DNA from: Gammaproteobacteria bacterium
GTDB taxonomy: Bacteria > Pseudomonadota > Gammaproteobacteria > Pseudomonadales > Pseudohongiellaceae
Direction: 5' to 3'
Assembly (NCBI GenBank): GCA_030828385.1
Contig: JAURCS010000012.1
Span: 1-64,000 of the forward strand
Length of the DNA: 64,000 bases
Part shown: in pieces, positions 16,610 to 33,116 of the stretch
Numbering within the stretch: the first letter of the stretch is position 1
Layout: each line of letters opens with the position of its first letter
Translations under genes and position numbers: made by a program
Notes under the pieces: generated by a model
What the model was told of the DNA's origin: nothing
Database searches by the model: none
Seen by the model: only the letters and a program-made list of their open reading frames with translations

Positions 16610-17419
16610 ATGTTGCAATTTTCTCAAATTGATCCGGTAGCCATCTCGCTGGGACCCTTGCAGATTCACTGGTATGCGTTGACCTATATTGCAGGATTTG
16701 CCGCGGCCTGGTTTCTGGGAATGAAAAGGGCAGATACAGAAAACTTTGGCTGGACCCGGACACAGGTAAGCGACCTGATTACCAATGCTGCCATTGGCGT
16801 GATTCTGGGCGGACGCATCGGGTATGTTCTTTTCTATAATGCCGGCAGTTTACTGGAGAACCCCTTTTCGCTTTTTTATATCTGGCAGGGTGGCATGTCT
16901 TTTCATGGTGGTTTGCTGGGAGTAGGGGTGGCGCTATGGTTATTTGCCCGCAGCACCGGGAAATCGGTTTTTCGGGTAATGGATTTTACCGCCCCGCTTG
17001 CGCCACTTGGGCTGGCTTTTGGGCGGCTGGGGAATTTTATCAATGGCGAATTATGGGGCAGGGCTGCAGAGGTGCCATGGGCGATGGTTTTTCCTGCAGA
17101 CAATCTGCAAATTGCCCGTCATCCTTCGCAGCTTTATCAGTTTGCCCTGGAAGGCTTAAGTCTGTTTTTTATCCTGTGGCTTTACTCCGCCAGACCGCGC
17201 CCGGCATTTGCTGTGACTGGAGCCTTCTGCCTCGGATATGGCGTTTTTCGAACGTTTATAGAATTTTTTCGTGAGCCCGATGCCCACCTTGGTTTTGTGG
17301 CTTTTGACTGGATGACAAAGGGGCAGCAATTATCGATTCCGATGATAATTGGTGGTGTTATCATTCTACTGATGGCATACCGCAAGGACAGTTTTGGCAA
17401 TACGCCAGCAGCCCGATAA
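16610..17419 (+). CDS. lgt: prolipoprotein diacylglyceryl transferase
   Basis: 269 residues with about seven membrane segments. The Lgt signature GRLGNFINGELWGR begins at residue 138 and holds the conserved Asn and Arg residues; YLFGGRIGY-like GGRIGYVLFYN and MSFHGGLLGV are also present. It moves diacylglycerol from phosphatidylglycerol to the lipobox cysteine of prolipoproteins in the inner membrane. Substrates in this window include the lipoproteins at 33786 and 58847. It precedes thyA and folA, as in many gammaproteobacteria. A possible -10 TATACT lies at 16544. Confidence 0.96.
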   Translation: MLQFSQIDPVAISLGPLQIHWYALTYIAGFAAAWFLGMKRADTENFGWTRTQVSDLITNAAIGVILGGRIGYVLFYNAGSLLENPFSLFYIWQGGMSFHGGLLGVGVALWLFARSTGKSVFRVMDFTAPLAPLGLAFGRLGNFINGELWGRAAEVPWAMVFPADNLQIARHPSQLYQFALEGLSLFFILWLYSARPRPAFAVTGAFCLGYGVFRTFIEFFREPDAHLGFVAFDWMTKGQQLSIPMIIGGVIILLMAYRKDSFGNTPAAR

Positions 17420-17440
17420 AACAGTAAAACAGTAAAACAA
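17417..17440 (+). repeat. three tandem 8-bp repeats between lgt and thyA
   Basis: TAAAACAG, TAAAACAG, TAAAACAA follow each other, the first beginning with the lgt stop codon. Such a short tandem tract could change length by slippage and alter the lgt-thyA spacing. Confidence 0.7.
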
Positions 17441-17474
17441 GAAACTGAACTAAGCAACACCTAGAGATTTCCCA

Positions 17475-18269
17475 ATGCGACAATACCTTGACCTGATGCA
17501 GCATATTCTGGACAACGGCGCGAAGAAACAGGATCGTACCGGAACCGGAACCCTTTCCGTGTTTGGGCATCAAATGCGCTTCGATTTAGCCAAAGGCTTT
17601 CCTTTGCTAACCACCAAAAAACTTCATATCCGCTCTATTGTGATAGAGCTACTTTGGTTCTTGAATGGTGATACCAATATCAAGTATCTGAAAGACAATA
17701 ATGTAAGAATCTGGGATGAGTGGGCAGATGAAAATGGGGAGCTGGGCCCGGTCTACGGGTTTCAGTGGCGCTCCTGGCCAGGTAAAGATGGTCAGACCAT
17801 CGACCAGATTGATAACGTCATGAACAATATAAAGCAGAATCCGGATTCACGCCGTCATATTGTGGTGGCTTATAATCCTGCCTATGTAGACGAAATGGCG
17901 TTACCTCCCTGCCATTCCCTGTTTCAGTTTTACGTGGCAGAAGGGAAGCTTTCCTGTCAGCTTTATCAGCGCTCCTGCGATACCTTTCTTGGTGTACCTT
18001 TCAATATTGCTTCCTACGCATTACTAACGCATATGATGGCGCAGCAATGTGATCTCGAAGTAGGAGATTTTGTCTGGACCGGTGGTGATGTGCATTTGTA
18101 TCTGGATCATCTTGATCAGGCACGTGAACAGCTCACGCGAGAGCCGATGTCATTACCGCGCCTGGAGATCAAGCGCAAACCACCGACACTGTATGATTAT
18201 GCCTTTGAGGACTTTGAGATTCTCGATTACCAGTCACACCCTCATATAGCGGCGCCGATATCGGTATGA
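17475..18269 (+). CDS. thyA: thymidylate synthase
   Basis: 264 residues, exactly the length of the short bacterial ThyA. The nucleophile is Cys146 in [13 protein letters not shown], the phosphate-binding arginines are in [12 protein letters not shown] and DSRRHIVV, and [22 protein letters not shown] is conserved. It methylates dUMP to dTMP using methylene-tetrahydrofolate and produces dihydrofolate, which the coupled folA product recycles. Its stop codon overlaps the folA start in an ATGA arrangement. Confidence 0.97.
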
Positions 18270-18772
18270 AGATTTCTCTTGTCTGGGCGATGGCCCAAAA
18301 TCGTGTAATTGGGCGCAATAACAGCCTGCCCTGGTACCTGCCGGAAGACCTCAAATATTTTAAACGAATTACTTTAGGTAAGCCTGTCATCATGGGACGA
18401 AAAACCTATGAGTCCATTGGCAAACCCCTGCCTGGCAGAACCAATATTGTAGTTAGTCGTAATGCTGGCTTTTCTGCCGAGGGAGTGAAAACGGTCACCT
18501 CACTGGATGAGGCAAAACAGCTTTGCGAAAGTATTGCTGAAATTGACGGTATTAACGAGGCTATGGTGATCGGCGGGGCAGAAATCTATACGCTGGCCTT
18601 GCCTATGGCAGATCGACTCTATCTTACTGAAGTACACGCGGACGTTGAGGGAGATACCACTTTCCCCGATTTTGACCGAAGTCTATGGCAGGAAGTCGCA
18701 CGCGAGAATTTTGAAGCCTCTGGCCCGAATCCCTACCCTTACAGTTTTCTGGTGCTGGATAAAATTCAGTAA
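18266..18772 (+). CDS. folA: dihydrofolate reductase
   Basis: 168 residues. The N terminus [33 protein letters not shown] holds the Met20-loop and the catalytic acid Asp28. The NADPH-binding [18 protein letters not shown] and the late [12 protein letters not shown] motifs are intact. It regenerates tetrahydrofolate after the ThyA reaction. Four-base overlap with thyA indicates translational coupling. Confidence 0.96.
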
Positions 18773-19670: not shown

Positions 19671-19764
19671 GTTTGTTTTTATCAGTGAAGGTCAGTAACC
19701 ATAAGGACCAGTGATAATTTTTTTTTGGCAATTTGCGGTCAGACAATGGACGCAGTTTTATTAT

Positions 19765-19795
19765 AAAAAACCGCCCGGTGTGGGGGCGGTTTTAA
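19765..19795 (-). terminator. rho-independent terminator of the seven-gene minus-strand operon
   Basis: ACCGCCC (19770-19776) and GGGCGGT (19784-19790) form a GC-rich stem, extended by an A-run on the left and a T-run on the right. Read on the minus strand it ends in TTTTTT, 27 bases after the DUF4175 stop. Confidence 0.85.
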
Positions 19796-19821: not shown

Positions 19822-22800
19822 TTACTCCCGGCTCAACTGCCTGTAGTACTCTGCCACCGATTCCTTATATTCATCTGGAATGATATCGGAGGTTGCGGTA
19901 CGCACGTTATTGGGATTATTGCTGTCGTTATCCAGTTGCAGACCCACTTCCAGTTGCTCAATAAGTGCCAGCATATCGTTATATTCCGCTGCCAGAATAT
20001 CTTCATTACGGTTCAGGCGTGTGGCTTCCAGCTGACGGATCCAGTCAACCATCTGAGCCAGTTCCTCGGCGTTGAGCTCAAGATCCTGCAACGCATCGCG
20101 GGCTATCTCGGTGAACTGGTCAAGATCACCATAGAACTGATCAGGTATTTCAATGGGACCATTAAAAAGAGGGTCCGCTCCGGTCCAGGCGCCGAAGCGA
20201 GGCCCCATGGCAAACCGGTCACCTCCGCCTTGCTGGCCTCCTTGTTGTTGACCCTGCTGTTGACCGCCCTGTTGCCCTTGTTGACCTTCCTGACCCTGCG
20301 CTTGTCCTTGCTGACCTTCCTGTCCCTGTTGCTGGCCCTGGCCGTTCTGCGCCAGTTGTTCCTGCAAGCGCGCACGCAGATTCTCAGCCTGGCGTCTGGC
20401 AATATCCAGATCAGAGGTTCCTGGTGCGCCCCGGGTAGCGACTATTTCCTGGGCATTTTCCAGGCGTTCGGCCAGTTTGCGCATTTCCGCTGTTACAGCA
20501 CTTTCATTTCCCGCGATATAAAGTCCATAACCGGCATCGATATAGAGTCCGGCATTGGTGAGCGCCTGCTCAAGTTCATTTTCGACAATATCCTGATTGG
20601 CACGCTGTAATTCGCGCGATGCTTCAGGAACATCATCACCAAAGCGTTGCATGGTGCTGAGCATCTGTTCCTGCAGACTGGAAAGCTCCGCAGCCAGCGC
20701 TGCTTTCTGCCGCGCCAGTTCCCATTCTTCCTGGAGTTCCATGCCACGGCTATTAGGGTCTTCACCAGATTCACGATCCGCCACTGCTTTGGCCATGGCT
20801 TGTTCAAGAATCTGTTCCTGTCGCTGCTGCTCTCTTAACATGTCTTCGGCCTGACCAGCCATATTGCTGAATGAAGACTGCATATCCGCAAGCTGGTCTG
20901 CGACTATTTGCTCGCGGGCGCCTTCCAGTTGACGACCAGCTTCATCCGCCGCCCGTTGTAATTCTTCCGGACTGTAATTTCCGCGCATTGCTTCAGCACT
21001 TTCCTCCATCGCACGAATGGCACTTTCCAGTCGGCGCTGCAGTTCGCTCTGGGCGATTTGCTCGCCCTGTTCTCCTTGTCCTTCTTGCGGCTGCTGACCC
21101 TGCTGGTTGTTCTGGGCAGTTTGCTGTCCCTGTTGACCGCGCTGCAGGCTTTCACGCTGCTGCTGCAGTTCATCAAGGCGCTCCTGTAATTCTTCGGCTT
21201 CACGTCTTAACATTTCCTGCTGGTAGCGCTGAGCTTCCGACAGCTGTTGCTGGTTGCGCAGGTTATTGGCCAGCTGCTGCTGACGACGGGCCAGTTCATC
21301 CAGCTGATTCATTATGTCTTCTTCTTCAGCCTGCTGGGCCTGGGGAGAAACATTGCTTCCGGTTTCGTACTGATTCAGCTCAAGATCCATTTCCAGTTCA
21401 AACATTTCAGCCAGGTCCTGCTGAGCGCGGCCACCGCCACCGCCTCCACCACCTTGCTGCTGGTTGTTGACCTGAAATTCGTTAAACACTGCTTCGGCCC
21501 GCAGTAAATGCTGGAGTGCTTCCTGGGCAGGCTGAATGGCTTCATCGAGCTCAACCGCTGCCAGGCGCTCGGAGGCCGGGTACATGCTCTGAACCGCTTC
21601 TTCCATATTGCTCACAAACTGCTCGATCTGATCATCCATGTTGTCGAGTTGGCGTGCTCGAGTGCGCTCTGCGAGAGTAGCAGCCTGTTCGGCCAGAGTA
21701 GTTTGCAGTTCTGACAACAGCGATGAGTTCACCTGAATCTGTCCGTCATTTGAATCTTCCGCCTGCTCTCTAATCAGGTTCCAGGTGGAAGTAATGATCT
21801 GGCGTTGGCGATTGGATATTTCATCCTGTGGGCCACCGCCGCCACCGCCACCACCGCCACCACCGGAAAGCTGGGACTGACTGTAACGACGTTGATAGGA
21901 CTGAATCTGAATGAAAAACATATCGGTGCGTACCGTCTGGGTGCGGTCATTTCCTTCTGCGTAAAAGGAAATAAGGTCACCGGGCACCAGGGGGACTTCA
22001 GGCGCTGGCGTGAGAGCTTCGTCTTCACCAGTCCCGATCATCAGATTGACGTATTCCTCTTCAGATTCCTCGATACGCTGCTGTTGTTCCTGATTGGAGG
22101 TAACGATTGAAAACTGGCCTACATTGGTCTGCGTTTCTTCCTCTTCAGGGACACGCATATCTTCAAGCATGAAGATATATTCAGCAGTGATATCACGGGT
22201 ATTTTCGGCCAGAGTAACTGTTTCCCAGTCCCCCCCGTTAATTGAATATTTAAGCCTGAGCGCTTCCAGATTGAAATCATCACTGGCTTCTATGCGCGCA
22301 GTAACTTCCTCAATATTACTGGCATTCCAGTCGCCACCGGGGCGAATGAATTCAATCACCGGCTTACCGTCTTCTGCGATTCGAATGAAATAGTCATCAC
22401 TCAGTCGTACCTGCTCACCGCCAACAATGGCAGCAATATAGTATTCGCCTTCATCGGTGACCATGAATTCTGTCGTGGCTTCCACGCCATCTACAGTGAG
22501 TGGCTGGCCATTTTCATTCAGCACCAGTTCGCCGCCGGGCAGGGGGGCGGTAGTGGTTACCTTGAGTCCGATGCGGGTATCGGGAAGGGTTCGTATATCA
22601 CCGAGTTCGAATATTTCGGGATCCCGTTCGGTCCAGGCCGGGTAGTTATAGGTCAGTTCCAGTTTTTCGATACCTGGTACTTCAACCACCTGTATTTCAA
22701 ACTCCGGGCTACGAATACCAGTGGTGGTAACAAAATAATTCATGTCTTTTTGCAGAGAGAAAAAAGTGAACTCAAAGCCGGCGGGGCTTTTCACCATTTC

Positions 22801-23487
22801 AACATCCTGCCATTCACCACCCGTTTCACGTACATGGATGACCGCCTCGTCTGGTGAAAACCCATCCATGACAGCCATGACCCGCAGATTGGCGCCGCGT
22901 CTTACACTTTGATCGCCAGGCGTAATAGTGATTGATTGCGGGGGAAGCAGATTATCTACAGCCCAGCCGGCAAATAAATTTCGCAGGCTGTAATTCATCA
23001 TGCCAGGACCGGCGACTACCAGGATCAGCAGGACGGTAATCGCCGTCGCACCGATGGCACCGGCAATATTAAAGTCCTTCTGTTTTATTTGCTCATGAAC
23101 CGGATGCGTCTCACTGACCTGAAGCGCATCTTCCGCCAGCAGATCGAGGAAGGGATTGTTGCTTTCGCGCATCTGGGAATAGGTTTCGACACGCCCACCA
23201 AAGTCCGGCGTTCGTTCTTCAATTTTGTTGCTGATGTTGGCATCAAGATCCTGCAGAGGGCGAACAATTGTAATGATGATGACTGCAGCCAGCGCCAGCA
23301 CCAGCAGAATTCGAAAGGCGGCAACAGTTTCGCCGGCAAATCCACTTTCTGTAGAAAACCAGGCACCAATAACAGACACGACCAGCAATACAACGGCACT
23401 GGCAGCAATGCCCTGCAGGAGAGTGAGTTTTCTGAGACGCTGTCTGAAAGCGTCGAGATACTGATCCAAACGGTTGGAAGTATTCAT
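19822..23487 (-). CDS. DUF4175-family giant membrane-anchored coiled-coil protein
   Basis: 1221 residues, the last gene of the operon. Two N-terminal membrane helices (about 25-45 and 58-78) and a third near 145-170 precede a periplasmic region with several beta domains (GDQSVRRGANLRVMAVMDG and similar). From about residue 550 to 1050 it is a long Gln/Glu-rich coiled coil. It holds an 11-Gly tract, an 8-Gly tract and a Gly-Gln tract, then a globular tail ending DIIPDEYKESVAEYYRQLS. DUF4175 proteins recur beside MoxR-DUF58-VWA genes, but their function is unknown. The architecture suggests a long scaffold or tether in the envelope. Confidence 0.82.
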   Translation of the reverse strand: MNTSNRLDQYLDAFRQRLRKLTLLQGIAASAVVLLVVSVIGAWFSTESGFAGETVAAFRILLVLALAAVIIITIVRPLQDLDANISNKIEERTPDFGGRVETYSQMRESNNPFLDLLAEDALQVSETHPVHEQIKQKDFNIAGAIGATAITVLLILVVAGPGMMNYSLRNLFAGWAVDNLLPPQSITITPGDQSVRRGANLRVMAVMDGFSPDEAVIHVRETGGEWQDVEMVKSPAGFEFTFFSLQKDMNYFVTTTGIRSPEFEIQVVEVPGIEKLELTYNYPAWTERDPEIFELGDIRTLPDTRIGLKVTTTAPLPGGELVLNENGQPLTVDGVEATTEFMVTDEGEYYIAAIVGGEQVRLSDDYFIRIAEDGKPVIEFIRPGGDWNASNIEEVTARIEASDDFNLEALRLKYSINGGDWETVTLAENTRDITAEYIFMLEDMRVPEEEETQTNVGQFSIVTSNQEQQQRIEESEEEYVNLMIGTGEDEALTPAPEVPLVPGDLISFYAEGNDRTQTVRTDMFFIQIQSYQRRYSQSQLSGGGGGGGGGGGPQDEISNRQRQIITSTWNLIREQAEDSNDGQIQVNSSLLSELQTTLAEQAATLAERTRARQLDNMDDQIEQFVSNMEEAVQSMYPASERLAAVELDEAIQPAQEALQHLLRAEAVFNEFQVNNQQQGGGGGGGGRAQQDLAEMFELEMDLELNQYETGSNVSPQAQQAEEEDIMNQLDELARRQQQLANNLRNQQQLSEAQRYQQEMLRREAEELQERLDELQQQRESLQRGQQGQQTAQNNQQGQQPQEGQGEQGEQIAQSELQRRLESAIRAMEESAEAMRGNYSPEELQRAADEAGRQLEGAREQIVADQLADMQSSFSNMAGQAEDMLREQQRQEQILEQAMAKAVADRESGEDPNSRGMELQEEWELARQKAALAAELSSLQEQMLSTMQRFGDDVPEASRELQRANQDIVENELEQALTNAGLYIDAGYGLYIAGNESAVTAEMRKLAERLENAQEIVATRGAPGTSDLDIARRQAENLRARLQEQLAQNGQGQQQGQEGQQGQAQGQEGQQGQQGGQQQGQQQGGQQGGGDRFAMGPRFGAWTGADPLFNGPIEIPDQFYGDLDQFTEIARDALQDLELNAEELAQMVDWIRQLEATRLNRNEDILAAEYNDMLALIEQLEVGLQLDNDSNNPNNVRTATSDIIPDEYKESVAEYYRQLSRE
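20221..20343 (-). repeat. Gly-Gln low-complexity tract in the DUF4175 gene
   Basis: About 41 codons encode almost only Gly and Gln with a few Glu and Ala. The DNA is a run of imperfect CTG/CCT/TTG triplet repeats, which could vary in length between strains. It lies between the coiled coil and the globular C-terminal domain, as a flexible linker would. Confidence 0.8.
21430..21453 (-). repeat. 8-glycine codon tract in the DUF4175 gene
   Basis: Eight consecutive Gly codons (mostly GGC and GGT) after a QQQ run, separating two coiled-coil blocks. Confidence 0.85.
21832..21864 (-). repeat. 11-glycine codon tract in the DUF4175 gene
   Basis: Eleven consecutive Gly codons (GGT and GGC alternating) at the junction of the beta-domain half and the coiled-coil half. 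The triplet repeat is prone to slippage, but changes in multiples of three would keep the frame. Confidence 0.9.
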
Positions 23488-23533
23488 CTGCTAATAGCCT
23501 TTATTTAGCCTACTATAATCTATTACCTGAAAT

Positions 23534-25552
23534 TTACAGGGTTCCCGTTCTTACGCGTAAATACTGATTACCAAGAATCGACTCTGCCAAAACAATAATA
23601 ACCAATAAAATCAGAAAGATACGCCAGATTTCATTTTCCTCGCGTTCTTCGTCTGCGTTAGCTGCGCCAGTGTCCGGGTTCAGGTTCTGTTCCCCCGCAC
23701 TGGCTGTTCCGGCCACTACATTCTGCCAGTTTTGAATTACCTGGGCATCCATTACTGTGAGATCTGATTCTCTTCGATCCGGGTTGACTGCGACCAGCAC
23801 TTCTCCTGCTGGAGTAAAGACCTGGTAATAGCCGGTTTTATTCAAGCGAATATCCTGTGACTGGGTGGTATCCGATAATGACAACAGGCTTTCGCCATCA
23901 GGATCAAATACCTGCCCAGAAGCACCTCCGGCCTGCGATAGTTGAAGGAAACTTTCTGCTACCTGTTCGCGGACTAACAGATTTTCGTTGGATAAATAGC
24001 GTGCCGCCTCTGCCATGAAACTCACAAACACCGGTTTCACCGTTAGATCACTGAGAGTATTGTCCAAGGCCGTAGTCAACAGCAGCATGCGACCTCGGCC
24101 TATTTCACTTTCAATCAATACCGGGCGATCTTCGCTCTGGGCGATCAGGATGCGTTGGTCTGCAGTCGGATTGACGGGCAGGGTCTGCATGTTGACTGAC
24201 CCCCACCCGGATGTGTCTGAAAGCACGGGATGACTGCTATCAATCATGGTGATTGGATTGCGGCTTTCGCGACCTGGGCGGGCAGTGCCAACCTGAAGCT
24301 CAAGCACGGGCACAGTATCAAGACCAAGACTGGCTTCTCCGGCAGCTGCCAGCACGGCGCCGCCGCCTCCGATATAGTCGTTGATTGCACTCGCCAGACT
24401 GGCATTAATGGCACCGATATCTTCAATCACAATCCAGGGATAGCGCTGCAGGATTCGTGCATCCAGGTCATCGATTGTTTGTGTAATGACTTCATAGCCT
24501 CTTGGGGCAGTTTCAAGCGCGGCCCGTATATAGGTGACGCCGAGGGATTCCGGGCTTGCTGTAAGCAACAGCACCGGGGCTGGCGGAGAGTTGTCAAACA
24601 CGGTGTATCTGACGTCATCACCGGGCAGGGAGTCAGCTGGTAACAAGCGAATATCTATTCGGTTATCACCTTCCTCAAACACCACGCTGTCAAAATCTAC
24701 AAGAGTAATACCGTTACCCGCGAGAGTAATGTCCTGGCGCTGTTGCTCAATATTGTTGATAGTTAAAACAACTGTTTTCTCAGCCACATCGTCTGCAATG
24801 TCCAGGCCGCGAATACCAACTTCAACACTATTGCGGGCATCGACAAGAACTGAATCCACAAGCCAGTTGGGGACGTTCTCTGTTCTGATCTGAACAATAT
24901 CCAGAGTGACGGGCCGGCCATTAATAACATCGGGAATCATGTCGGCAAAACGAACCGCCTGGCCAGTTTGTTGATAATCACTGATGAAGTGCATGATGAA
25001 ATTAGCCTGGCTTTCCTCGATCAGGGTATTCATCGTGGTGACCATAATACCAAGGTCGAGTTTGCCATTATCCGGCGACAGGCCACTTAATGCCTGCATC
25101 AGGACATTGCTGTCATCTGTGACGGGGACTATTGTTGTTACTCCTGAGGAAGCCGTGTACAGGCTTGCCACCTCATCCTCGGTCATAGAGTTGACGATGT
25201 CTCTTGCTGCCTCTACCGCACTGGCAAAACTCGCCCCTTCCTGCATTGAGAATGAGGTATCCATCACGATGACATGGTGAGTTGTATCTTCAGTAACAAG
25301 CGCGGCCGGGGGGGTGAAAAAAACCGGACGCGTAAATGCCAGCACCAGGATCAGGAAAAACAGAATACGCAGAGCCATAAGCAGCAGATATTTAAGTTTA
25401 CGCTGCACATGGATGCGTTTTTTGGCGGGCTCCAGAAACATGGCAGTACTGAATTGTTCACGTTCAGTAACCTGGGTTTCAAGGCGATGCAGCCAGATTG
25501 GCAAGCCAATACCCAGAAGTCCCAGTAGAAAAAGTGGAGCTATTAATGCCAC
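23534..25552 (-). CDS. BatA-domain/VWA membrane protein
   Basis: 672 residues from a GTG start that follows the DUF58 stop by three bases. The N terminus (LFLLGLLGIGLPIWLHRL, then a second helix near 55-77) is the BatA-type anchor. A VWA-like domain follows with the MIDAS motif DTSFS at residues 98-102. Later parts include a CARDB-like beta domain (VEVGIRGLDIAD) and a GATase-like segment (YPWIVIEDIGAI, INDYIGGGGAVLAAAG). A final helix near 640-660 anchors the C terminus. It should face the periplasm and bind a divalent metal ion. It is a member of the MoxR-DUF58-VWA group whose AAA ATPase is encoded two genes upstream. Confidence 0.87.
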   Translation of the reverse strand: MALIAPLFLLGLLGIGLPIWLHRLETQVTEREQFSTAMFLEPAKKRIHVQRKLKYLLLMALRILFFLILVLAFTRPVFFTPPAALVTEDTTHHVIVMDTSFSMQEGASFASAVEAARDIVNSMTEDEVASLYTASSGVTTIVPVTDDSNVLMQALSGLSPDNGKLDLGIMVTTMNTLIEESQANFIMHFISDYQQTGQAVRFADMIPDVINGRPVTLDIVQIRTENVPNWLVDSVLVDARNSVEVGIRGLDIADDVAEKTVVLTINNIEQQRQDITLAGNGITLVDFDSVVFEEGDNRIDIRLLPADSLPGDDVRYTVFDNSPPAPVLLLTASPESLGVTYIRAALETAPRGYEVITQTIDDLDARILQRYPWIVIEDIGAINASLASAINDYIGGGGAVLAAAGEASLGLDTVPVLELQVGTARPGRESRNPITMIDSSHPVLSDTSGWGSVNMQTLPVNPTADQRILIAQSEDRPVLIESEIGRGRMLLLTTALDNTLSDLTVKPVFVSFMAEAARYLSNENLLVREQVAESFLQLSQAGGASGQVFDPDGESLLSLSDTTQSQDIRLNKTGYYQVFTPAGEVLVAVNPDRRESDLTVMDAQVIQNWQNVVAGTASAGEQNLNPDTGAANADEEREENEIWRIFLILLVIIVLAESILGNQYLRVRTGTL

Positions 25553-25555
25553 GAA

Positions 25556-26485
25556 TCAGCCTCGCTTTTCTCTGAAGGTTAAATAGTTGTGCAAGGCTCT
25601 ATCCAGAGGATCAGCGGTATTGATCAGCACATGGTCAGCGCGAATACCACTGGCCGCTTCCTCGATAGTCTTGATGTGTTGCTGAATTTTTTCCCGGTAG
25701 GCTTTTGCCATATAACCAGGTTCGACTTCTATGGCCTGGCCGGTTTCCATATCCTCATAAAGCGTTGATTGTTTGATTTGCGGATCCAGTTCTTCAGGAT
25801 CCAGCAGATGGAAAATGATCACATCCTGTCCATGCATAGCCAGTGGTCGAATATGTTCTAACAGTTCATCGGCATCACAGTAAAAGTCAGAGATTACTGC
25901 AACCAGCCCGCGTTTTTTCACGTGTTCACGAAAGCGGGTCATGGGTTTATTGATATCGGTGCCCATTGATGCTTCGGCTTTATCCAGCGTGTGAATTACA
26001 CCCTGAAGGGAACCGGGTTTGCTGGCGGGCGGGCGATAATCAATGACCTCGTCATCAAATAACATGACGCCAACGGCATCATGCTGTCGGGAGGCCAGGT
26101 AAGCCAGACTTGCGCCGAGATATTTACCATACTGAAGTTTTGAGGGGCCACTGGTTTTGCTTGCCGCGCCAAAGCCCATGGAAGCACTGGTGTCCAGCAA
26201 CAACATAAGGTGGCTATTGGTTTCACCCATAAAGCGTTTGATATAGGTGCGGTCGGTGCGTGAGTATACATTCCAGTCGATATAGCGCGGATCGTCGCCC
26301 TCGCTATATTCCCGGTACTCGACAAATTCCTGGCTAAAACCAAATTTGGGCGAGCGATGCAGGCCATTTACAAAACCCTCAACCACCGCTTTTGCCACCA
26401 GTTCCAGATTGGACATGCTGGCAAGCACGGCGGGGTCGAGAAGCCGGGTCTGGGCTTTGCGGTTATCAGTATGGGTCAGGCTCAT
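25556..26485 (-). CDS. DUF58 family protein (VWA-like)
   Basis: 309 residues, soluble. The DUF58 signature EYREYSEGDDPRYIDWNVYSRTD lies at about 57-79 and is followed by a VWA-like domain with an intact MIDAS DTSAS at 98-102. DUF58 genes nearly always follow a moxR gene, as here (33-base gap). The product is thought to be a substrate or adaptor for the ATPase. Its place between MoxR and the membrane VWA protein suggests it links the cytoplasmic motor to the envelope part. Confidence 0.92.
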   Translation of the reverse strand: MSLTHTDNRKAQTRLLDPAVLASMSNLELVAKAVVEGFVNGLHRSPKFGFSQEFVEYREYSEGDDPRYIDWNVYSRTDRTYIKRFMGETNSHLMLLLDTSASMGFGAASKTSGPSKLQYGKYLGASLAYLASRQHDAVGVMLFDDEVIDYRPPASKPGSLQGVIHTLDKAEASMGTDINKPMTRFREHVKKRGLVAVISDFYCDADELLEHIRPLAMHGQDVIIFHLLDPEELDPQIKQSTLYEDMETGQAIEVEPGYMAKAYREKIQQHIKTIEEAASGIRADHVLINTADPLDRALHNYLTFREKRG

Positions 26486-26518
26486 CAGTTGTCCGTTTTT
26501 TCTTTTGTATTGTTCTGC

Positions 26519-27553
26519 TTAAGCGGCTTCAGCAGGCGCAGACAGATCATTAAGCATGCTGGCGAGAATATCGTCCACCGTCATGCCATCAGACTCCGCA
26601 TAGTAATTTGGCAACACACGGTGACGCAGAATGGGCGTAGCCAGCACCCGGATATCTTCTGGTGTTACATGGTAGCGACCTTCCATAAGGGCGCGAGCCT
26701 TGGCGGCCAGTACCAGGTTCATGGACGCACGAATACTGGAACCAAAGTTAATATATTTTTTAACCATCTCAGTGGCCAGAGGATCCGAGGGGCGGGTTGC
26801 CCTGACCACATCCACAGCATAACGGGTAACCGATTCTGAAATGGGAACCTGACGCACCAGCCACTGGAACTTCATAATTTCCTCGCTGCTGGTACAGGCT
26901 TTCACTTCAGGCATGTCTACGCGTCGGGTAAAGCGATCCAGTACCGCGACTTCTTCTTCCGGTGACAGATAACCCAGAATTTCGTTAAACAGGAAACGGT
27001 CGAGCTGGGCTTCCGGTAATGGGTAGGTGCCTTCCAGTTCGATAGGGTTCTGGGTTGCCAGAACCAGGAAAGGTTTATCCAGGCGATGCAGTTGTCCACG
27101 CACAGTAACGGTTTTCTCCTGCATGGCCTCGAGCAGGGCAGCCTGGGTTTTTGGTGGTGTTCGGTTAATTTCGTCGGCCAATAGCACATTGGTGAATACC
27201 GGGCCAGGTACGAAGCGCCATTCACGTTTGCCCGTGCTTTGGTCCTCTTCAACCATGTCGGTACCGGTGATGTCACCAGGCATCAGGTCAGGCGTAAACT
27301 GAATTCGCTTGAAGGTCAGGCCCAGCGCAGAGGCCAGCGTGTGAACCAACAGGGTTTTTGCGGTTCCGGGCATCCCTGTAATGAGACAGTGTCCACCCAC
27401 ATAAAGCGTGATAAGCAGGTTATCGACAATCTGCTGCTGTCCAATAATGGTACCGGCAATCTGCTCACGGATATTGCTATTGGCAGTCTGGAAAGCTTTC
27501 ACCAGCTCGCGTGTTTCTTCCGTATCAAAGGTATCGTTCACGTTTTCACTCAT
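26519..27553 (-). CDS. MoxR family AAA+ ATPase
   Basis: 344 residues. Walker A GMPGTAKT is at residues 60-67, Walker B LLADEINR has Asp127/Glu128, and ATQNPIELEGTYPLPEAQLDRF is the MoxR-specific pore-loop and sensor region. The C-terminal lid includes VLAAKARALMEGRYHVTPEDI. MoxR proteins act as chaperone-like motors that activate or assemble VWA proteins by inserting metal or remodelling. It has a good ribosome site (AGGAAC) and is the only motor encoded in this operon. Confidence 0.95.
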   Translation of the reverse strand: MSENVNDTFDTEETRELVKAFQTANSNIREQIAGTIIGQQQIVDNLLITLYVGGHCLITGMPGTAKTLLVHTLASALGLTFKRIQFTPDLMPGDITGTDMVEEDQSTGKREWRFVPGPVFTNVLLADEINRTPPKTQAALLEAMQEKTVTVRGQLHRLDKPFLVLATQNPIELEGTYPLPEAQLDRFLFNEILGYLSPEEEVAVLDRFTRRVDMPEVKACTSSEEIMKFQWLVRQVPISESVTRYAVDVVRATRPSDPLATEMVKKYINFGSSIRASMNLVLAAKARALMEGRYHVTPEDIRVLATPILRHRVLPNYYAESDGMTVDDILASMLNDLSAPAEAA

Positions 27554-27613
27554 AACTTGTTCCTGTGGTTCACTCTTTAAATTTTGTAGGTTTTATCTGA
27601 AATTTTTTCCGGA

Positions 27614-29950
27614 TCAGTTTCGTGTCCTGCTCATTTCCAATAACAATTGCTGGGCTGGTCTGTATTGTGGCGCAATATCCAGCGCTGTCATCAGGTATTC
27701 CATTGTCTTCTCTGCATTGTCCAATGCGTTGTAGGCATTGGCAATGCGATAGTTGGCTGACGCCTTGTCCAGAGGATCAAGCGCCAGCAGCACTTTATAT
27801 TCTTCCAGAGCCTGAGCAGGGCGCTGTGTTTCCATGTAGAGGTCGCCCAAGGTCACATGCAGGCTTTCAATGAAGGGGTCAGCGTAGTTGGTGTCCATAA
27901 GAACCGCCTCTGCCTCCGCTTTCATACCCCGCTCAAGATAGTAGTCTGCCAGTTTTAACAGGGCGCTTGGCAAATAACCGCCTTTTTGCCAGAAAGACTG
28001 CAAGGCCTGGAATTCTTCCTCGTGATTACCAAGTTGACTGCTCACTCTGGCAATAACTATATAGGCGCTATTATTCTCAACATAGTCCGGATAGGTAAAC
28101 ACGGCTCGCTGTGCCGCGGCCAGTGCCTCATCCCATTTTTCTTCCCCGAGCGCTGCGTAACTAACGCGCATGTCTTCCATCCAGACACCCAGACCACTGA
28201 GCAAGGGTCCGTATTCAATATCAATAAACTGCTTAAAGTGACGATCAAACTCTTTATCACTGATGCCGATACTGTTTTCAATAGCCTGCACCGGTGTGGC
28301 GCCTTCATTAAACTGGTAAAGCATATCGACAATTTTCTCGAAGCCGTACTCCAGGTCGATGAAGTCAAAGATCAGGCCTGCCTGCATATAGGAAACAATG
28401 ACCTGCCCCTGGTAAGTGGGACGCATGAATCCATCATCCAGTTCCGAGATTGGCATGAACTTGCCTTCTGCCATGGCCTGCAGGACATCAGTAGGAATTT
28501 TACGGCCTGGAATCGGGCCCGTACGCCATTCCTCATAAACGGAAATTCCTTCACTGAACCAGCGCGGAACAAAATGATTGGTGGCTTCAAGAGTAAAGAC
28601 ATGGGCCATCTCGTGCCACAGAGTCGTTCCCCAATGATAACTCTGCTCGGGGTGACCGGTGGGCGAATCCATGGCAAACAGATAACCAAAGGTGACACCC
28701 AGTATACCGACACCCGGCATACCGATGGAACGCACTACAAAATCTTCATGATTGGGATAAATTTCTACAATGATGGGTTCTTGTGGCGTGAAATTATAGC
28801 GCGCCGAATACAGATCAATGCTGTCCTTTGAAAGCTTCTGTGCATAGTTTTTCAATACGTTGGTTTCGTCGCGATGCAGACGCAGTATAAATTCTGGCAA
28901 GGGGCCAGCGGGAGGGTCCGGATAGCTGATGGCGACAAAATCTTCGTTAAAGGTATCCAGCAAACGCAACATGTTGACGGTCATCGGATTGAAGGCGTCA
29001 CCTTCATAGGAAATATTAACGTGGCGAATGGCATCATTTATGTTGTTCAGACGCAGATAATTCTGCCCAAGATAGATATGCGCCTCCCAATGATTGGGCT
29101 GTAGTTCAACGGCCTGTTTAAAAAAGTCACCTGCTTCTTTATAGCGACGCACGATGGAGGCAAAGTAGCCTGGAATAAAATAAGCATCACCGTATGCAGG
29201 GCTTTCGCTTAATGCCGCTGCTATCCAGCTTTCATGTTCTTCTCGTGTCATGAAGGCATGGGCGGCGCGCAGGGCTTTTAGCTCCATGGTTGGAAGTGAT
29301 TCATCACTGGCAAATTCGAACGCTTCATCCAGGGAATTCAGCGCTTCGTCATAGCGATCCCCCTGCAAGAGGGAGCGGATTGTCATCATGATGGCGCGTA
29401 GTCTGGCCCCATAGGGTGCAAGACCTTCTTCCATGACACTGGAAAGATGATGGTTCAGGACCTCGGGATCGCCGCCTTCACTCAGGGCAGAGGCTGCGCC
29501 GATGTGGGCCCATGAGTTAAGCGGATCCAGTTCAAGGGCTTCGCTGAACAGATTAAAGGCCTCCTGATACTGGTAAGTCTCCATAAAAAGTTCGCCCCAG
29601 CGAATCCGTACCATGGGGTCTTCAGGAAATTGACTGATAGCATCCCTGAACTGGGTGTTTGCGCTTTGCAGGTCACCGAGAGCCCAGAATGCTTCAGCGC
29701 GGATCTGAGGGGGATGTTGAAGGCTGTTGAGACTGGCATAGCAGTTTCTGGCCTCTGCAGACTCACCACTCCAGGACAGAGTGTCACACTCCAGAAGGGC
29801 TTCATTCTCAAGAGCCCCATATAAATGATCGCGGGCAAAAGTATTAACCGACAAAGACGGCAAAAGAAAAGCCAGACACAGGCTCACGGTAACTGTTTTG
29901 TTAGTAACAGTCGTGTGCGAAAGGATTTTTTCTACAACCTTATTCAACAT
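27614..29950 (-). CDS. exported TPR protein with gluzincin peptidase domain
   Basis: 778 residues from ATG 29950, which overlaps the upstream stop by 11 bases; the frame is open to 30055, but that would overlap the previous gene by over 100 bases. A signal peptide is near residues 18-39. TPR-like repeats cover about 45-330. A peptidase-MA-like metalloprotease domain then has HEMAH at residues 446-450 and a Glu in WFSEGISVYEEW (Glu467) as the third zinc ligand. More TPR repeats fill the C terminus (to about 770). I infer a periplasmic zinc peptidase scaffold. The substrate is unknown, and the caspase-like neighbour may be a partner. Confidence 0.82.
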   Translation of the reverse strand: MLNKVVEKILSHTTVTNKTVTVSLCLAFLLPSLSVNTFARDHLYGALENEALLECDTLSWSGESAEARNCYASLNSLQHPPQIRAEAFWALGDLQSANTQFRDAISQFPEDPMVRIRWGELFMETYQYQEAFNLFSEALELDPLNSWAHIGAASALSEGGDPEVLNHHLSSVMEEGLAPYGARLRAIMMTIRSLLQGDRYDEALNSLDEAFEFASDESLPTMELKALRAAHAFMTREEHESWIAAALSESPAYGDAYFIPGYFASIVRRYKEAGDFFKQAVELQPNHWEAHIYLGQNYLRLNNINDAIRHVNISYEGDAFNPMTVNMLRLLDTFNEDFVAISYPDPPAGPLPEFILRLHRDETNVLKNYAQKLSKDSIDLYSARYNFTPQEPIIVEIYPNHEDFVVRSIGMPGVGILGVTFGYLFAMDSPTGHPEQSYHWGTTLWHEMAHVFTLEATNHFVPRWFSEGISVYEEWRTGPIPGRKIPTDVLQAMAEGKFMPISELDDGFMRPTYQGQVIVSYMQAGLIFDFIDLEYGFEKIVDMLYQFNEGATPVQAIENSIGISDKEFDRHFKQFIDIEYGPLLSGLGVWMEDMRVSYAALGEEKWDEALAAAQRAVFTYPDYVENNSAYIVIARVSSQLGNHEEEFQALQSFWQKGGYLPSALLKLADYYLERGMKAEAEAVLMDTNYADPFIESLHVTLGDLYMETQRPAQALEEYKVLLALDPLDKASANYRIANAYNALDNAEKTMEYLMTALDIAPQYRPAQQLLLEMSRTRN

Positions 29951-30872
29951 CTGCCTGAGAGCTTTCCCGCAGCGTTTCAATCTCTTCGCTGACTTCTGCG
30001 GACTGCAAAATGAGCGCCTGTAAACGCTGAATATATTCGCTATTGGTGAATTCATTGCGGCGTAATTGTAATGACTCTATTTCTGCGTCAAGTTCGAGCC
30101 GTCTGGTAAGTAAATTACTTATACGGGGATTGTCATCGGAAAGTTCCACCGCCTGAACTCGCGCGAGAGTAAAGCTGACGGCGCCTTCGCCACGGATCTG
30201 AGGATGCTCTGTCGCCAGTTTCCCGGAAGATTCAAAAAATTCAGTGACACTTCGCTCGGCAAAATCAAATGCTTCCTGAATGCTGACATTATTATTCTTG
30301 TTAATGTCGGCAGTTTCGCTGGTCAGGGCAGTGGCAAAGAAGGGCCCGAACTCGGTGGCATTTTTCTCATTACCATTGCGCGTCGCGGTAATAATGATGC
30401 GGTTTTCATTTTCAAGAGCTTCAAGAATGGCGCCACTGGTACTGGAAGTATTAACCAGGAAGTGATTTTGACCCGGCAAGCTGTCCAAAATATCGACCAG
30501 ATCGGCATCGGTAATATCCGGACCAGGAATATTAAATTTATACTGTTCCCCGTCATAACTGCCATGGCCAACCAGGTAAATGGCGGCACGATCGGCATCA
30601 GTCATTGCCGCTGCAAGGCTCTGGAAGTGAGCCAGAAGGGCATCCCGTGTAGCGCTGTCTCCGCCTAGAGAGGTGACCTGTGATTCTTCTGCCAGGGTAA
30701 GAGAGGCCTCACGGATTTTCTGTGTCTGATCGGTAAATGCGCTATCAAACTCGGGCATTCCACCCAGTCCCTGAACAATGGTGACGTAGAGTGCGGCCTG
30801 CACTGCTGTGGGCATCAGGGTGGATATCATGGCAACTGATGCAATAAACAGGGATGTGATTGATTTGTTCAT
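29940..30872 (-). CDS. exported caspase-like (C13/C14 fold) protein with Cys-to-Ser active site
   Basis: 310 residues. A signal peptide ends near residue 26. The caspase-hemoglobinase pattern is visible: His103 in YLVGHGSYDG, then a strand and FLVNTSSTSGAILEAL, where legumain and caspase relatives have a C-x-S-G loop. Ser144 sits at the catalytic-Cys position and the codons clearly read Ser (AGT). A C-terminal coiled coil (about 240-300) ends the protein. It is probably a pseudoenzyme or uses serine. It starts 18 bases after the VWA gene, with ribosome site GAGAGG. Confidence 0.78.
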   Translation of the reverse strand: MNKSITSLFIASVAMISTLMPTAVQAALYVTIVQGLGGMPEFDSAFTDQTQKIREASLTLAEESQVTSLGGDSATRDALLAHFQSLAAAMTDADRAAIYLVGHGSYDGEQYKFNIPGPDITDADLVDILDSLPGQNHFLVNTSSTSGAILEALENENRIIITATRNGNEKNATEFGPFFATALTSETADINKNNNVSIQEAFDFAERSVTEFFESSGKLATEHPQIRGEGAVSFTLARVQAVELSDDNPRISNLLTRRLELDAEIESLQLRRNEFTNSEYIQRLQALILQSAEVSEEIETLRESSQADVE

Positions 30873-30890
30873 AACCCTCTCAGTAGGCTT

Positions 30891-33116
30891 TTAAATGGTG
30901 CGCCAATGCCGTCGAAGCAACCATTCGGCAGTTTTCAACAATATTAATAAAAGGAAAAAGAACGGCGCATCCCACAGGTAACTAATTTGTTGTTCGGTGA
31001 TACCGGCAGTTGAATGGGAAATAGCCTCCGGGATTTCATCCCATTGCTCAGGGCTCCAGTATTGCCCGCCGGTAAGCAGTGAGATTCGCTCCAGCAAGGG
31101 ACGATTCTGGCGCACATTGAATATTTCCTGGCCTTCGTCATAACGCACTGCAGTAGTTGTCGCGCTGACCAGGCTTTCGCCTACTCGCGAAATCGCTTCA
31201 ATACTGTAAAGCCCGGTCTGGTTTGGTGTGAAAGATGCTTCATAGACGCCAGGCTGACCGGGAACCGGTTGTAAATCCAGACTTACCACATCACTGTTTT
31301 CGGAGGACACCACGGCGGAAATTTCCAGCCCCTGGTTTTCCTCAGCATCCGGATCACGTACCTGCGCGCGCACACTGATCTGTTCGTTTTGCACACGACT
31401 GGTGAGCTCGAAAGGCCGCGGGGAATTGGCTACCAGCCCCCGGGTAAGCTGACGCCAGAACGTTTCATGGCGCATATCGGCCACCGGCAGACTCATTTGC
31501 CAGCGCCAGGTACCGCCAGTGGCCAGAATATAACTTTGGCCTTTTCCATAGGGCTGGGTGACCAGCAAGGGCTGAATGCGGCCTTCAACATTAATGCCCA
31601 ACAGGGTGGTTGCCGCCGGGCGCAAGGGGCCAAGCTGCTGATGATCAGCTATTTCGGGTAGTTCGGACCAGAGTCGCTCATTCTCCGATTCACTGTCACT
31701 GAATTGCAGCATCGGTGCCAGTCGTCCGCTATCGGTGAGGGTAACCGGCGCTTTCTCACGCACAAATGCAGCATTATCCGCATTCAGTCGCGATGGCAGA
31801 ATTTCGTTGACGACAGTTTCGCCCCAGCCGCCAAGGCCGAGACCATTGAGCCCTGCCAGCATCATCAGGCTGCCGCCGCGATCACTGACAAAGTCACGAA
31901 TCATGGCATGCTGCTCACTGGTAAGCTCAGCGGCATTCAGGCTGCCAATAATGAGGGCGTCATAATTGAACAGTTCGGCGCGCTCCTCAGGAAATCCATT
32001 CTCCAGCTGTTCCGGGCTTTCAATGCCCTGGCGATAATATTTATTGGGGGTTACCTTGAGCAGGGTGGATAACTGTATGCTGGGGTCGTCATTGAGGGCA
32101 CGCTGAAGAAACTTGTACTCCCAACGTGGCTCACCTTCTACATATAAGACCTTGTAACGACTTTCCCCCACATCGACCACTCTTGAGCGCGTGTTGTTGG
32201 CGAGATTGCTTTCATTATTAATGGGATCAAGAGTGAAGCGGAGGTCAAGCTGGCCCGGTTCAGGCACTTCGATATCCACAAAGGCAAGCGTCATGTTCTG
32301 ATCGTTTCCGAGCACAATGTCCTGGGTGGTCAAAAAGGTATCGCCGTCATAAACCTTGACTCTGGCGCTGCCGCCCTGGTCATGTCGAATGGCAACCCTG
32401 GCAGAAAGCGTGGTGCCGGGCAGGGCTTTTTCCGGCAACAGTATTTCGCTGAGTTCCAGATCTTCAGGAATGCTCTCTCGACCGATACCAACGCTATGAA
32501 TGGGAACTCCAAAGCTGGCAATCTCGCTTAATTCTGACTGGGAAATGGCGCCGCTGTTATCTGCACCGTCACTGACCAGGATTACTGCTCCCAGCGAAGC
32601 GCCGCTAGCCTGACGCAAGGTTTGTAACACGGACTGCCCCAGGTTGGTTGCAGTTCCGGGGTCAGGCAGGATCGAAAAAGCATCCATGGTATTGGCGCTA
32701 TCAGCGAAACCGTAGGGCAGGATATTGTAAATATTGGCTATGCCTGCAAGCGCGTCAGGGGTGAGCAGAGCCTGCGCCTGATCCATTCTGGTGGAGCCGC
32801 CTTCATTGAAAGTCATACTGCCGGAAGTATCCAGCATAATGGCCACAGCATTTTCGCCACTGAGCAAGCGCTCAGAAACCAGTGCCGGTTGCCAGACCAC
32901 AATCAGCACCACGGCGAGCATTAATAATTGAATAAAACCGATAGTACCAAGCTGATACCCCTTCATATTGCCTGGCCGCCGAGCCATTATTACCAGCAGC
33001 GTGACAAAAAAGGCAAACAGAAGTATGGCAAGAATCCATAACGGCCAGCCACTGGCAAAAATGAATTCACTATCATTGAATACTGATCGGGGATATTTAA
33101 AGAAAAATTCGATCAT
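30891..33116 (-). CDS. VWA-domain membrane protein with GATase-like domain, first gene of operon
   Basis: 741 residues. Two N-terminal helices (about 25-45 and 57-77) are followed by a VWA domain with the MIDAS DTSGS at residues 96-100. A CARDB/beta domain and a glutamine-amidotransferase-like Rossmann domain (YDALIIGSLNAAEL, RGGSLMMLAGLNGLG) follow. The nucleophile elbow has no Cys, so no amidotransferase activity is expected. A C-terminal helix ends near residue 730. It resembles the other VWA protein of the operon in plan and is probably its structural partner. The start at 33116 has a weak ribosome site. Confidence 0.85.
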   Translation of the reverse strand: MIEFFFKYPRSVFNDSEFIFASGWPLWILAILLFAFFVTLLVIMARRPGNMKGYQLGTIGFIQLLMLAVVLIVVWQPALVSERLLSGENAVAIMLDTSGSMTFNEGGSTRMDQAQALLTPDALAGIANIYNILPYGFADSANTMDAFSILPDPGTATNLGQSVLQTLRQASGASLGAVILVSDGADNSGAISQSELSEIASFGVPIHSVGIGRESIPEDLELSEILLPEKALPGTTLSARVAIRHDQGGSARVKVYDGDTFLTTQDIVLGNDQNMTLAFVDIEVPEPGQLDLRFTLDPINNESNLANNTRSRVVDVGESRYKVLYVEGEPRWEYKFLQRALNDDPSIQLSTLLKVTPNKYYRQGIESPEQLENGFPEERAELFNYDALIIGSLNAAELTSEQHAMIRDFVSDRGGSLMMLAGLNGLGLGGWGETVVNEILPSRLNADNAAFVREKAPVTLTDSGRLAPMLQFSDSESENERLWSELPEIADHQQLGPLRPAATTLLGINVEGRIQPLLVTQPYGKGQSYILATGGTWRWQMSLPVADMRHETFWRQLTRGLVANSPRPFELTSRVQNEQISVRAQVRDPDAEENQGLEISAVVSSENSDVVSLDLQPVPGQPGVYEASFTPNQTGLYSIEAISRVGESLVSATTTAVRYDEGQEIFNVRQNRPLLERISLLTGGQYWSPEQWDEIPEAISHSTAGITEQQISYLWDAPFFFLLLILLKTAEWLLRRHWRTI

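Follow-up and report, generated by a model that had tools for sequence, protein, structure and literature searches.

A conserved seven-gene MoxR-DUF58-VWA operon includes a gluzincin and a legumain-like protein with serine at the catalytic cysteine position

INTRODUCTION

Operons that combine a MoxR ATPase, a DUF58 protein, and VWA proteins are widespread in bacteria, and their purpose is unsettled. Bat (Bacteroides aerotolerance) operons encode MoxR, DUF58, a BatA-type VWA protein, and a TPR protein, and cmd mutants of Rhizobium leguminosarum are reported to have envelope and morphology changes (PMC5700661). Deletion of bat in Leptospira gave no growth or oxidative-stress phenotype (PMC3557215). 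MoxR and VWA proteins are also found together in ternary conflict systems, whose caspase domains frequently lack activity (Kaur et al. 2020, PMC7159879). Neither DUF58 nor legumain appears in the available part of the follow-up on these systems (PMC8195603); MoxR, DUF58, and caspase all appear in another paper (PMC8430577). Here, we describe a seven-gene operon in a 64,000-nucleotide stretch of a gammaproteobacterial genome of the family Pseudohongiellaceae (GenBank assembly GCA_030828385.1, contig JAURCS010000012.1, positions 1 to 64,000), which we call the window. The operon joins genes for MoxR, DUF58, and VWA proteins to genes for a DUF4175-like protein, a TPR-gluzincin, and a legumain-like protein in which Ser takes the place of the catalytic Cys (Ser-legumain). 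In our literature search, no title or opening of an abstract pointed to MoxR-DUF58-VWA genes together with C13-like and gluzincin genes; subscription journals lay mostly outside that search, so this is no proof that the combination is unpublished.

RESULTS

Seven genes almost certainly form one conserved unit

The open reading frames (ORFs) from position 33,116 to 19,822 all lie on the minus strand. Their transcription order is VWA1, legumain-like, TPR-gluzincin, MoxR, DUF58, BatA-type VWA, and DUF4175-like (Table 1). Five junctions have gaps of 18, 60, 33, 3, and 46 bases, and the legumain-like and gluzincin genes overlap by 11 bases when the gluzincin begins at the ATG at 29950, its likeliest start (its longest ORF is 27614-30055). 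After the last stop codon comes a stem-loop at 19793-19761 with a 10-bp stem, a 7-base loop, and a T-rich 3' side, and the 123-base stretch that holds it folds at z = -3.6. A simple consensus terminator scan did not list this site and was at chance level in the region (16 sites versus 17.8 expected). The ORF coordinates and the stem-loop confirm the layout given in an initial annotation of the window, which listed seven same-strand genes with gaps of at most 60 bases, an 11-base overlap, and a single terminator.

We searched 58 genomes of the order with the legumain-like protein and then inspected the surroundings of the 36 other matches in the window's family. The protein matched 37 of the 58 genomes, that is, all 37 from the window's family and none of the 21 from other families. 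All seven genes were present in 33 of the 37 family genomes, and the loci of the remaining 4 are cut by contig ends. The gene order is that of the window in 17 family genomes and a rearranged form, with the DUF4175-like gene first, in 20. In a scan of species genomes, we examined gene order in the best 80 of 217 relatives. These keep the window's order as far as their contigs reach, and 59 have all seven genes. One locus was flagged for order (L161), where VWA1 is a 100-amino-acid fragment at a contig edge, and the contig of another (L152) runs 0.7 kb beyond MoxR without a recognizable DUF58. The best 80 come from Gammaproteobacteria and Acidobacteriota; taxa among them include Woeseiaceae, Granulosicoccaceae, Arenicellaceae, and many Acidobacteriota. 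An even sample of the class gave matches in 7 of 369 genomes, the window's own included; the other six all have the same order, although a contig end truncates one of them and another (L210) repeats a locus already seen (L122). Thus, in our samples, the system is uncommon across the phylum as a whole, whereas every searched genome of the window's family has it.

The genes are also tightly packed in the relatives. With the longest starts, the median spacing is -85 bases from VWA1 to the legumain-like gene, -4 both from the legumain-like gene to the gluzincin and from BatA to DUF4175, and 2 to 17 at the other three junctions (60 to 78 loci per junction, with one to three outliers above 150 bases at five junctions). 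Family-wide completeness (33 of 37, with 4 contig-cut) and the order conservation in the best 80 rule out a chance cluster. We are nearly certain that the seven genes are one conserved unit, as the initial annotation had proposed, and the neighborhoods in the family, the best 80 relatives, and the class sample bear this out. The annotation had allowed that the two peptidase-like genes might sit here by chance; the relatives show that both are real members.

We built a quick tree of six genes (all but the DUF4175-like gene) from 52 of the 92 seven-gene loci, which remained after removal of near copies, with support from the Shimodaira-Hasegawa-like approximate likelihood ratio test only. The rearranged form of the family is a long separate branch, and the window's form falls with other Gammaproteobacteria, next to Acidobacteriota. 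Thus, the window's family carries two deep operon forms, apparently one per genome, as each genome has one legumain-like gene. The order of the rearranged form is DUF4175-VWA1-legumain-gluzincin-DUF4159-MoxR-DUF58-BatA (L038-L042, L045, L046, L050, L051, L053-L055, L057-L059, L061-L063, L065, and L066), and large ORFs that read as resistance-nodulation-division pumps lie beside it in 11 thinned loci. The operon also occurs in two loci (L114 and L117) titled as a Klebsiella pneumoniae metagenome-assembled genome (MAG), a title that is likely a mislabel; L114 groups with gammaproteobacterial MAGs in the tree, and L117 was thinned out.

Table 1. Features of the operon, in transcription order (window coordinates)
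Feature	Position	Strand	Description and basis
VWA1	30891..33116	-	741-aa (amino acid) membrane protein; ORF, Pfam, and motif
Legumain-like (C13 fold) protein	29940..30872	-	310 aa; probably exported (read from N-terminal sequence only)
His103 codon CAT (catalytic His position)	30564..30566	-	Alignment
Ser144 codon AGT (catalytic Cys position)	30441..30443	-	Alignment
TPR-gluzincin (Peptidase_MA_2)	27614..29950	-	Probably exported; ATG start at 29950
HEMAH zinc-binding motif of gluzincin, then SEG	28601..28615	-	Motif
MoxR AAA+ ATPase (AAA_3 and lid)	26519..27553	-	Intact Walker A and B
DUF58 protein, VWA-type MIDAS (metal ion-dependent adhesion site; DTSAS)	25556..26485	-	Pfam and motif
BatA-type VWA protein	23534..25552	-	GTG start; Pfam, hydropathy, and MIDAS DTSFS
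DUF4175-like protein	19822..23487	-	1221 aa; family-level profile, model, and fold search
Intrinsic terminator 3' of last gene	19761..19793	-	Sequence and folding

The legumain-like protein has lost the catalytic cysteine

The legumain-like protein matches Peptidase_C13 at 1.9e-5, above the Pfam cut-off. Among 54 members of its family, 24 match C13, compared with 4 that match C14. A sequence search of solved structures with the family profile gave only weak matches (the best, at 0.011, is not such a peptidase, and metacaspase-4 came at 0.13), and we therefore used a fold search. The fold is closest to C13, and the catalytic His103 is kept. We found that the position of the catalytic Cys holds Ser in 122 of 123 operon loci; L051, with Asn, is the only other. 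Some of these loci are duplicates: 12 family loci represent the same DNA as best-80 loci, L210 equals L122, and L154 encodes the same protein as L156. The distinct proteins thus number 109. In the six class-sample loci, the Ser was identified by visual inspection.

In an even sample of the phylum, 40 of 398 genomes match the legumain-like protein, the window's own included, and the best other match (1.8e-12) is a C13 protein with Cys. Twenty-nine of the other 39 could be aligned, with Cys at this position in 21, Asn in 2, and a gap in 6. Loci L068 to L083 are proteins from other families of the order; L068 as read has a long N-terminal repeat region followed by a C13-like domain with His-Cys kept.

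Ser-legumain keeps the His and the cleft, with Ser in place of Cys. We left residues 111 to 119 out of the loop statistic, which with them included is 16 of 25 (P = 1.6e-10); conservation of these residues is partly by construction, because the best 80 loci were chosen through a pattern that covers them, [AY]KFN[IN]xG[PL]D. His103 and Ser144 lie outside this pattern. The protein differs from legumain and other C13 peptidases, and from the glycosylphosphatidylinositol transamidase PIG-K, in the change from Cys to Ser and in being bacterial and operon bound. A substituted dyad is also found in bacterial pseudo-orthocaspases, which have a caspase fold and a conserved pocket (PMC6426788). These are C14-type proteins with other dyads (YS, YA, FS, YN, YG, QC, and HA are named in PMC6426788), whereas the window protein keeps His and is closest to C13.

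We considered whether Ser144 and His103 are an active dyad, which would make the protein a serine hydrolase or transpeptidase on a legumain fold beside the gluzincin. The dyad described for clan CD enzymes is His-Cys (PMC12445089), one operon locus has Asn at this position, and the pocket of pseudo-orthocaspases is likewise conserved (PMC6426788), so that conservation alone does not show catalysis. We therefore regard an active dyad as doubtful. Even more speculative is a two-enzyme periplasmic processing station, in which the first serine-nucleophile enzyme on the clan CD (legumain/caspase) fold would work with the gluzincin, perhaps as a transpeptidase attaching proteins to a partner in the envelope, with MoxR and DUF58 driving it from the cytoplasm. 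A catalytic Ser144 would extend this fold, whose enzymes are described as His-Cys (PMC12445089), by a serine class. Ser-legumain probably binds rather than cuts.

The gluzincin keeps an intact peptidase site

The gluzincin of the window has Pfam matches to Peptidase_MA_2 and TPR. HExxH followed by a downstream EG is kept in all 107 gluzincin copies of at least 600 aa, and no other operon member has an intact peptidase site of the classical kind. The initial annotation had placed a proteolytic part in the periplasm and counted a caspase-like protein within it. The first idea fits the gluzincin, with its intact site and probable export; the second lacks support in that form, because Ser replaces the catalytic Cys, and "legumain-like without the catalytic Cys" is the better label. 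The other domain labels (MoxR, DUF58, BatA/VWA, and TPR gluzincin) agree with the Pfam matches.

The gluzincin and the legumain-like protein are both probably exported, as judged from their N termini. The gluzincin has one hydropathy segment barely above the threshold (1.72 versus 1.7), and the legumain-like protein begins with a signal-peptide-like hydrophobic stretch ending in VQA. Some loci have broken genes, likely through sequencing or assembly errors: VWA1 and the gluzincin are in pieces in L056 and L102 (one draft genome), the gluzincin is split in L106, and both gluzincin and MoxR are split in L166.

The motor core and the membrane proteins

MoxR matches PF07726 at 4.8e-62, and its gene is adjacent to that of the DUF58 protein (Pfam match at 1.5e-42). 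All 101 MoxR copies examined have an intact Walker A and Walker B. The MIDAS is kept in 99 of 99 DUF58 copies and in 109 of 110 VWA1 copies. A strict pattern finds it in 78 of 94 BatA copies, and the true figure is higher because the pattern misses the window's own MDTSFSM. The BatA-type protein has BatA and VWA_2 Pfam matches, with two N-terminal hydrophobic helices and one C-terminal one by hydropathy. VWA1 of the window, taken alone, has only subthreshold VWA matches in Pfam; it has two N-terminal hydrophobic helices, the MIDAS DTSGS, a GATase1-like middle, and an MG2/FN3-like end, and a relative (L040) passes the GATase1_like and MG2 cut-offs. These matches and motifs support the MoxR-DUF58-VWA core that the initial annotation had named.

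The DUF4175-like protein has three N-terminal hydrophobic helices, Ig/FN3-like domains at about residues 185 to 530, and then a Gln-rich stretch with a coiled-coil look. A model of residues 1 to 560 (mean predicted local distance difference test score, 82.8; predicted template modeling score, 0.50) has helices over the three hydrophobic segments and then beta-sandwich domains at about 185 to 530. A fold search of the N terminus returned generic FN3, Ig, and complement-type chains. Library scans gave no DUF4175 match for the window protein itself, and for that reason we doubted the label; we kept it after 20 of 24 members of the family alignment (A4) matched PF13779 at E ≤0.01 (best, 1.3e-10), the window protein not being among them. 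"Giant DUF4175 scaffold," the earlier description, is a fair one given these features.

Core operons without the peptidase-like genes

We found MoxR-DUF58-BatA-VWA1 operons in 15 of 15 fetched loci from another class of the phylum, presumably Alphaproteobacteria (VWA1 profile matches to 4.9e-24). These loci were chosen among the best VWA1 matches; 126 of 398 phylum genomes match VWA1 at E ≤1e-5, the window's own included. Neither a legumain-like nor a DUF4175-like gene was found in the neighborhood of any of the 15, and the sole gluzincin-like match is a weak TPR match (20 bits, 204 aa). We take these loci to have the make-up of the cmdA-cmdD operon (RL3499-RL3502) of R. leguminosarum. The window operon resembles them in its adjacent MoxR and DUF58 genes, its BatA-N VWA protein, and its VWA1 homologue. 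It differs in order, with VWA1 first rather than MoxR-DUF58-BatA-VWA1, and in its 672-aa BatA, which lacks the DUF4159 domain that is fused to BatA in the other class (2 of 2 scanned). With Bat operons, it has MoxR, DUF58, a BatA-type VWA protein, and a TPR protein in common; unlike in Bat, no BatD family is listed by Pfam for the seven proteins (HMMER filters drop most matches above E 0.1). A separate locus in the same genome (L202, contig C43) is Bat-like in composition: besides MoxR, DUF58, and a VWA protein, it encodes two proteins of roughly 600 aa.

The core-only loci raise the question of whether two modules are merely cotranscribed here, a cmd- or Bat-like MoxR core and an independent legumain-gluzincin pair. 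We consider this unlikely. VWA1, a core protein, sits on the far side of the pair, which comes after VWA1 and before MoxR in every best-80 locus that reaches those genes. VWA1, legumain, and gluzincin also stay together in the rearranged form (20 family genomes; L042 is cut before the gluzincin). Finally, the genes change in step: over 92 loci, pairwise distances of the six genes used for the tree show correlations of 0.90 to 0.98, to which shared genome descent contributes.

A possible envelope machine

From the sequences, we infer a function for the operon, export of two of its products, an assembly in the periplasm, a motor that acts by way of DUF58 and VWA proteins, and a role for Ser-legumain. 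The seven genes may encode a single cell-envelope machine of an extended MoxR-DUF58-VWA kind, with a cmd- or Bat-like core, in which Ser-legumain binds or gates for the gluzincin; we give this model an even chance of being right. In such a machine, the cytoplasmic part would be MoxR with the soluble DUF58 protein, a chaperone motor for loading or remodeling the two VWA proteins in the membrane. On the periplasmic side, the VWA proteins and the DUF4175-like protein would project VWA, GATase-like, and Ig/FN3-like domains as well as a long extended stretch, and would hold the exported TPR-gluzincin, as the working peptidase, and the exported Ser-legumain. Ser-legumain would bind a peptide or partner in its conserved cleft and so present substrate to the gluzincin or gate it. 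Most likely, such a machine would process an envelope protein or wall-linked material or control its quality.

Several points weigh against this model. Topology was read from hydropathy, sequence, and predicted models rather than from a signal-peptide program, and no segment of the legumain-like protein exceeds the hydropathy threshold of 1.7. Because the legumain-like protein served to find the loci, the conservation of order does not show how frequent the other genes are without it. The peptidase-like genes may also be an add-on with their own task, because 15 of 15 core operons of the other class exist without the legumain-like and DUF4175-like genes. Taken together, the data support the envelope location proposed by the initial annotation as probable. 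This version of the operon, intact in two phyla, points to its probable clients in the periplasm, namely a zinc peptidase whose site is intact and a legumain fold that carries a fixed substitution of Ser for Cys. What MoxR-VWA envelope systems act on thus becomes a question that can be tested with a defined set of proteins.

The operon is very unlikely to be a defense system

The initial annotation had also offered a defense device. The operon would then resemble the MoxR-VWA ternary systems of conflict, with caspase-like proteins as effectors or inactive binders. It shares with these systems a MoxR, a VWA protein, and an often inactive caspase-like domain: about 70% of effector-position caspases are inactive in the VMAP type (PMC7159879). 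The window's MoxR passes the bpMoxR cut-off (34.5 versus 27 bits), and the spread in the class sample is patchy. However, matches in the PADLOC scan were weak (MoxR matched mad8 at 2.5e-4, the best, with seven weaker ones besides; the DUF4175-like protein matched PbeC at 0.09). Ternary systems have variable effectors and VMAP, iSTAND, or a similar third protein, whereas this operon has a fixed composition, with no swapped effectors in the best 80 relatives to the limits of their contigs, and has membrane-bound and probably exported parts. No VMAP, iSTAND, or FtsH third component was listed in the Pfam, NCBIfam, and PADLOC scans, although these libraries may lack some. By the legumain-like gene, each of the 37 family genomes has one copy, and genes for Lgt, thymidylate synthase, and dihydrofolate reductase lie near by. 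Because the PADLOC scan and the gene context give it little support, we rejected defense, which we consider very improbable.

DUF4159 is a frequent eighth member

The initial annotation missed a frequent eighth member, DUF4159. Of the 73 assessable loci among the best 80, 43 have a DUF4159 gene immediately before VWA1, and 30 lack it there; 7 more could not be judged. Those without it include the loci most like the window (L097-L110 and L112), and none of the 17 family genomes with the window's order, the window's own included, has it next to the operon. In the rearranged form, DUF4159 lies between the gluzincin and MoxR in 19 of 20 loci, where the fragment reaches (by profile, with Pfam on 3). 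The genome of the window carries three DUF4159 genes away from the operon (L218, L219, and L220). One of them (contig C149), the closest to the operon type, scores 347 bits, compared with 351 to 392 for full-length copies before VWA1, and DUF4159 may have moved away from the operon in this genome. In a search of the flanks of the 52 thinned loci, we found no fixed neighbor, and the largest cluster was DUF4159 itself (18 of 52). In the window, the genes for Lgt, thymidylate synthase, and dihydrofolate reductase stand in a row at 16610-18772, two small genes from the 3' end of the operon.

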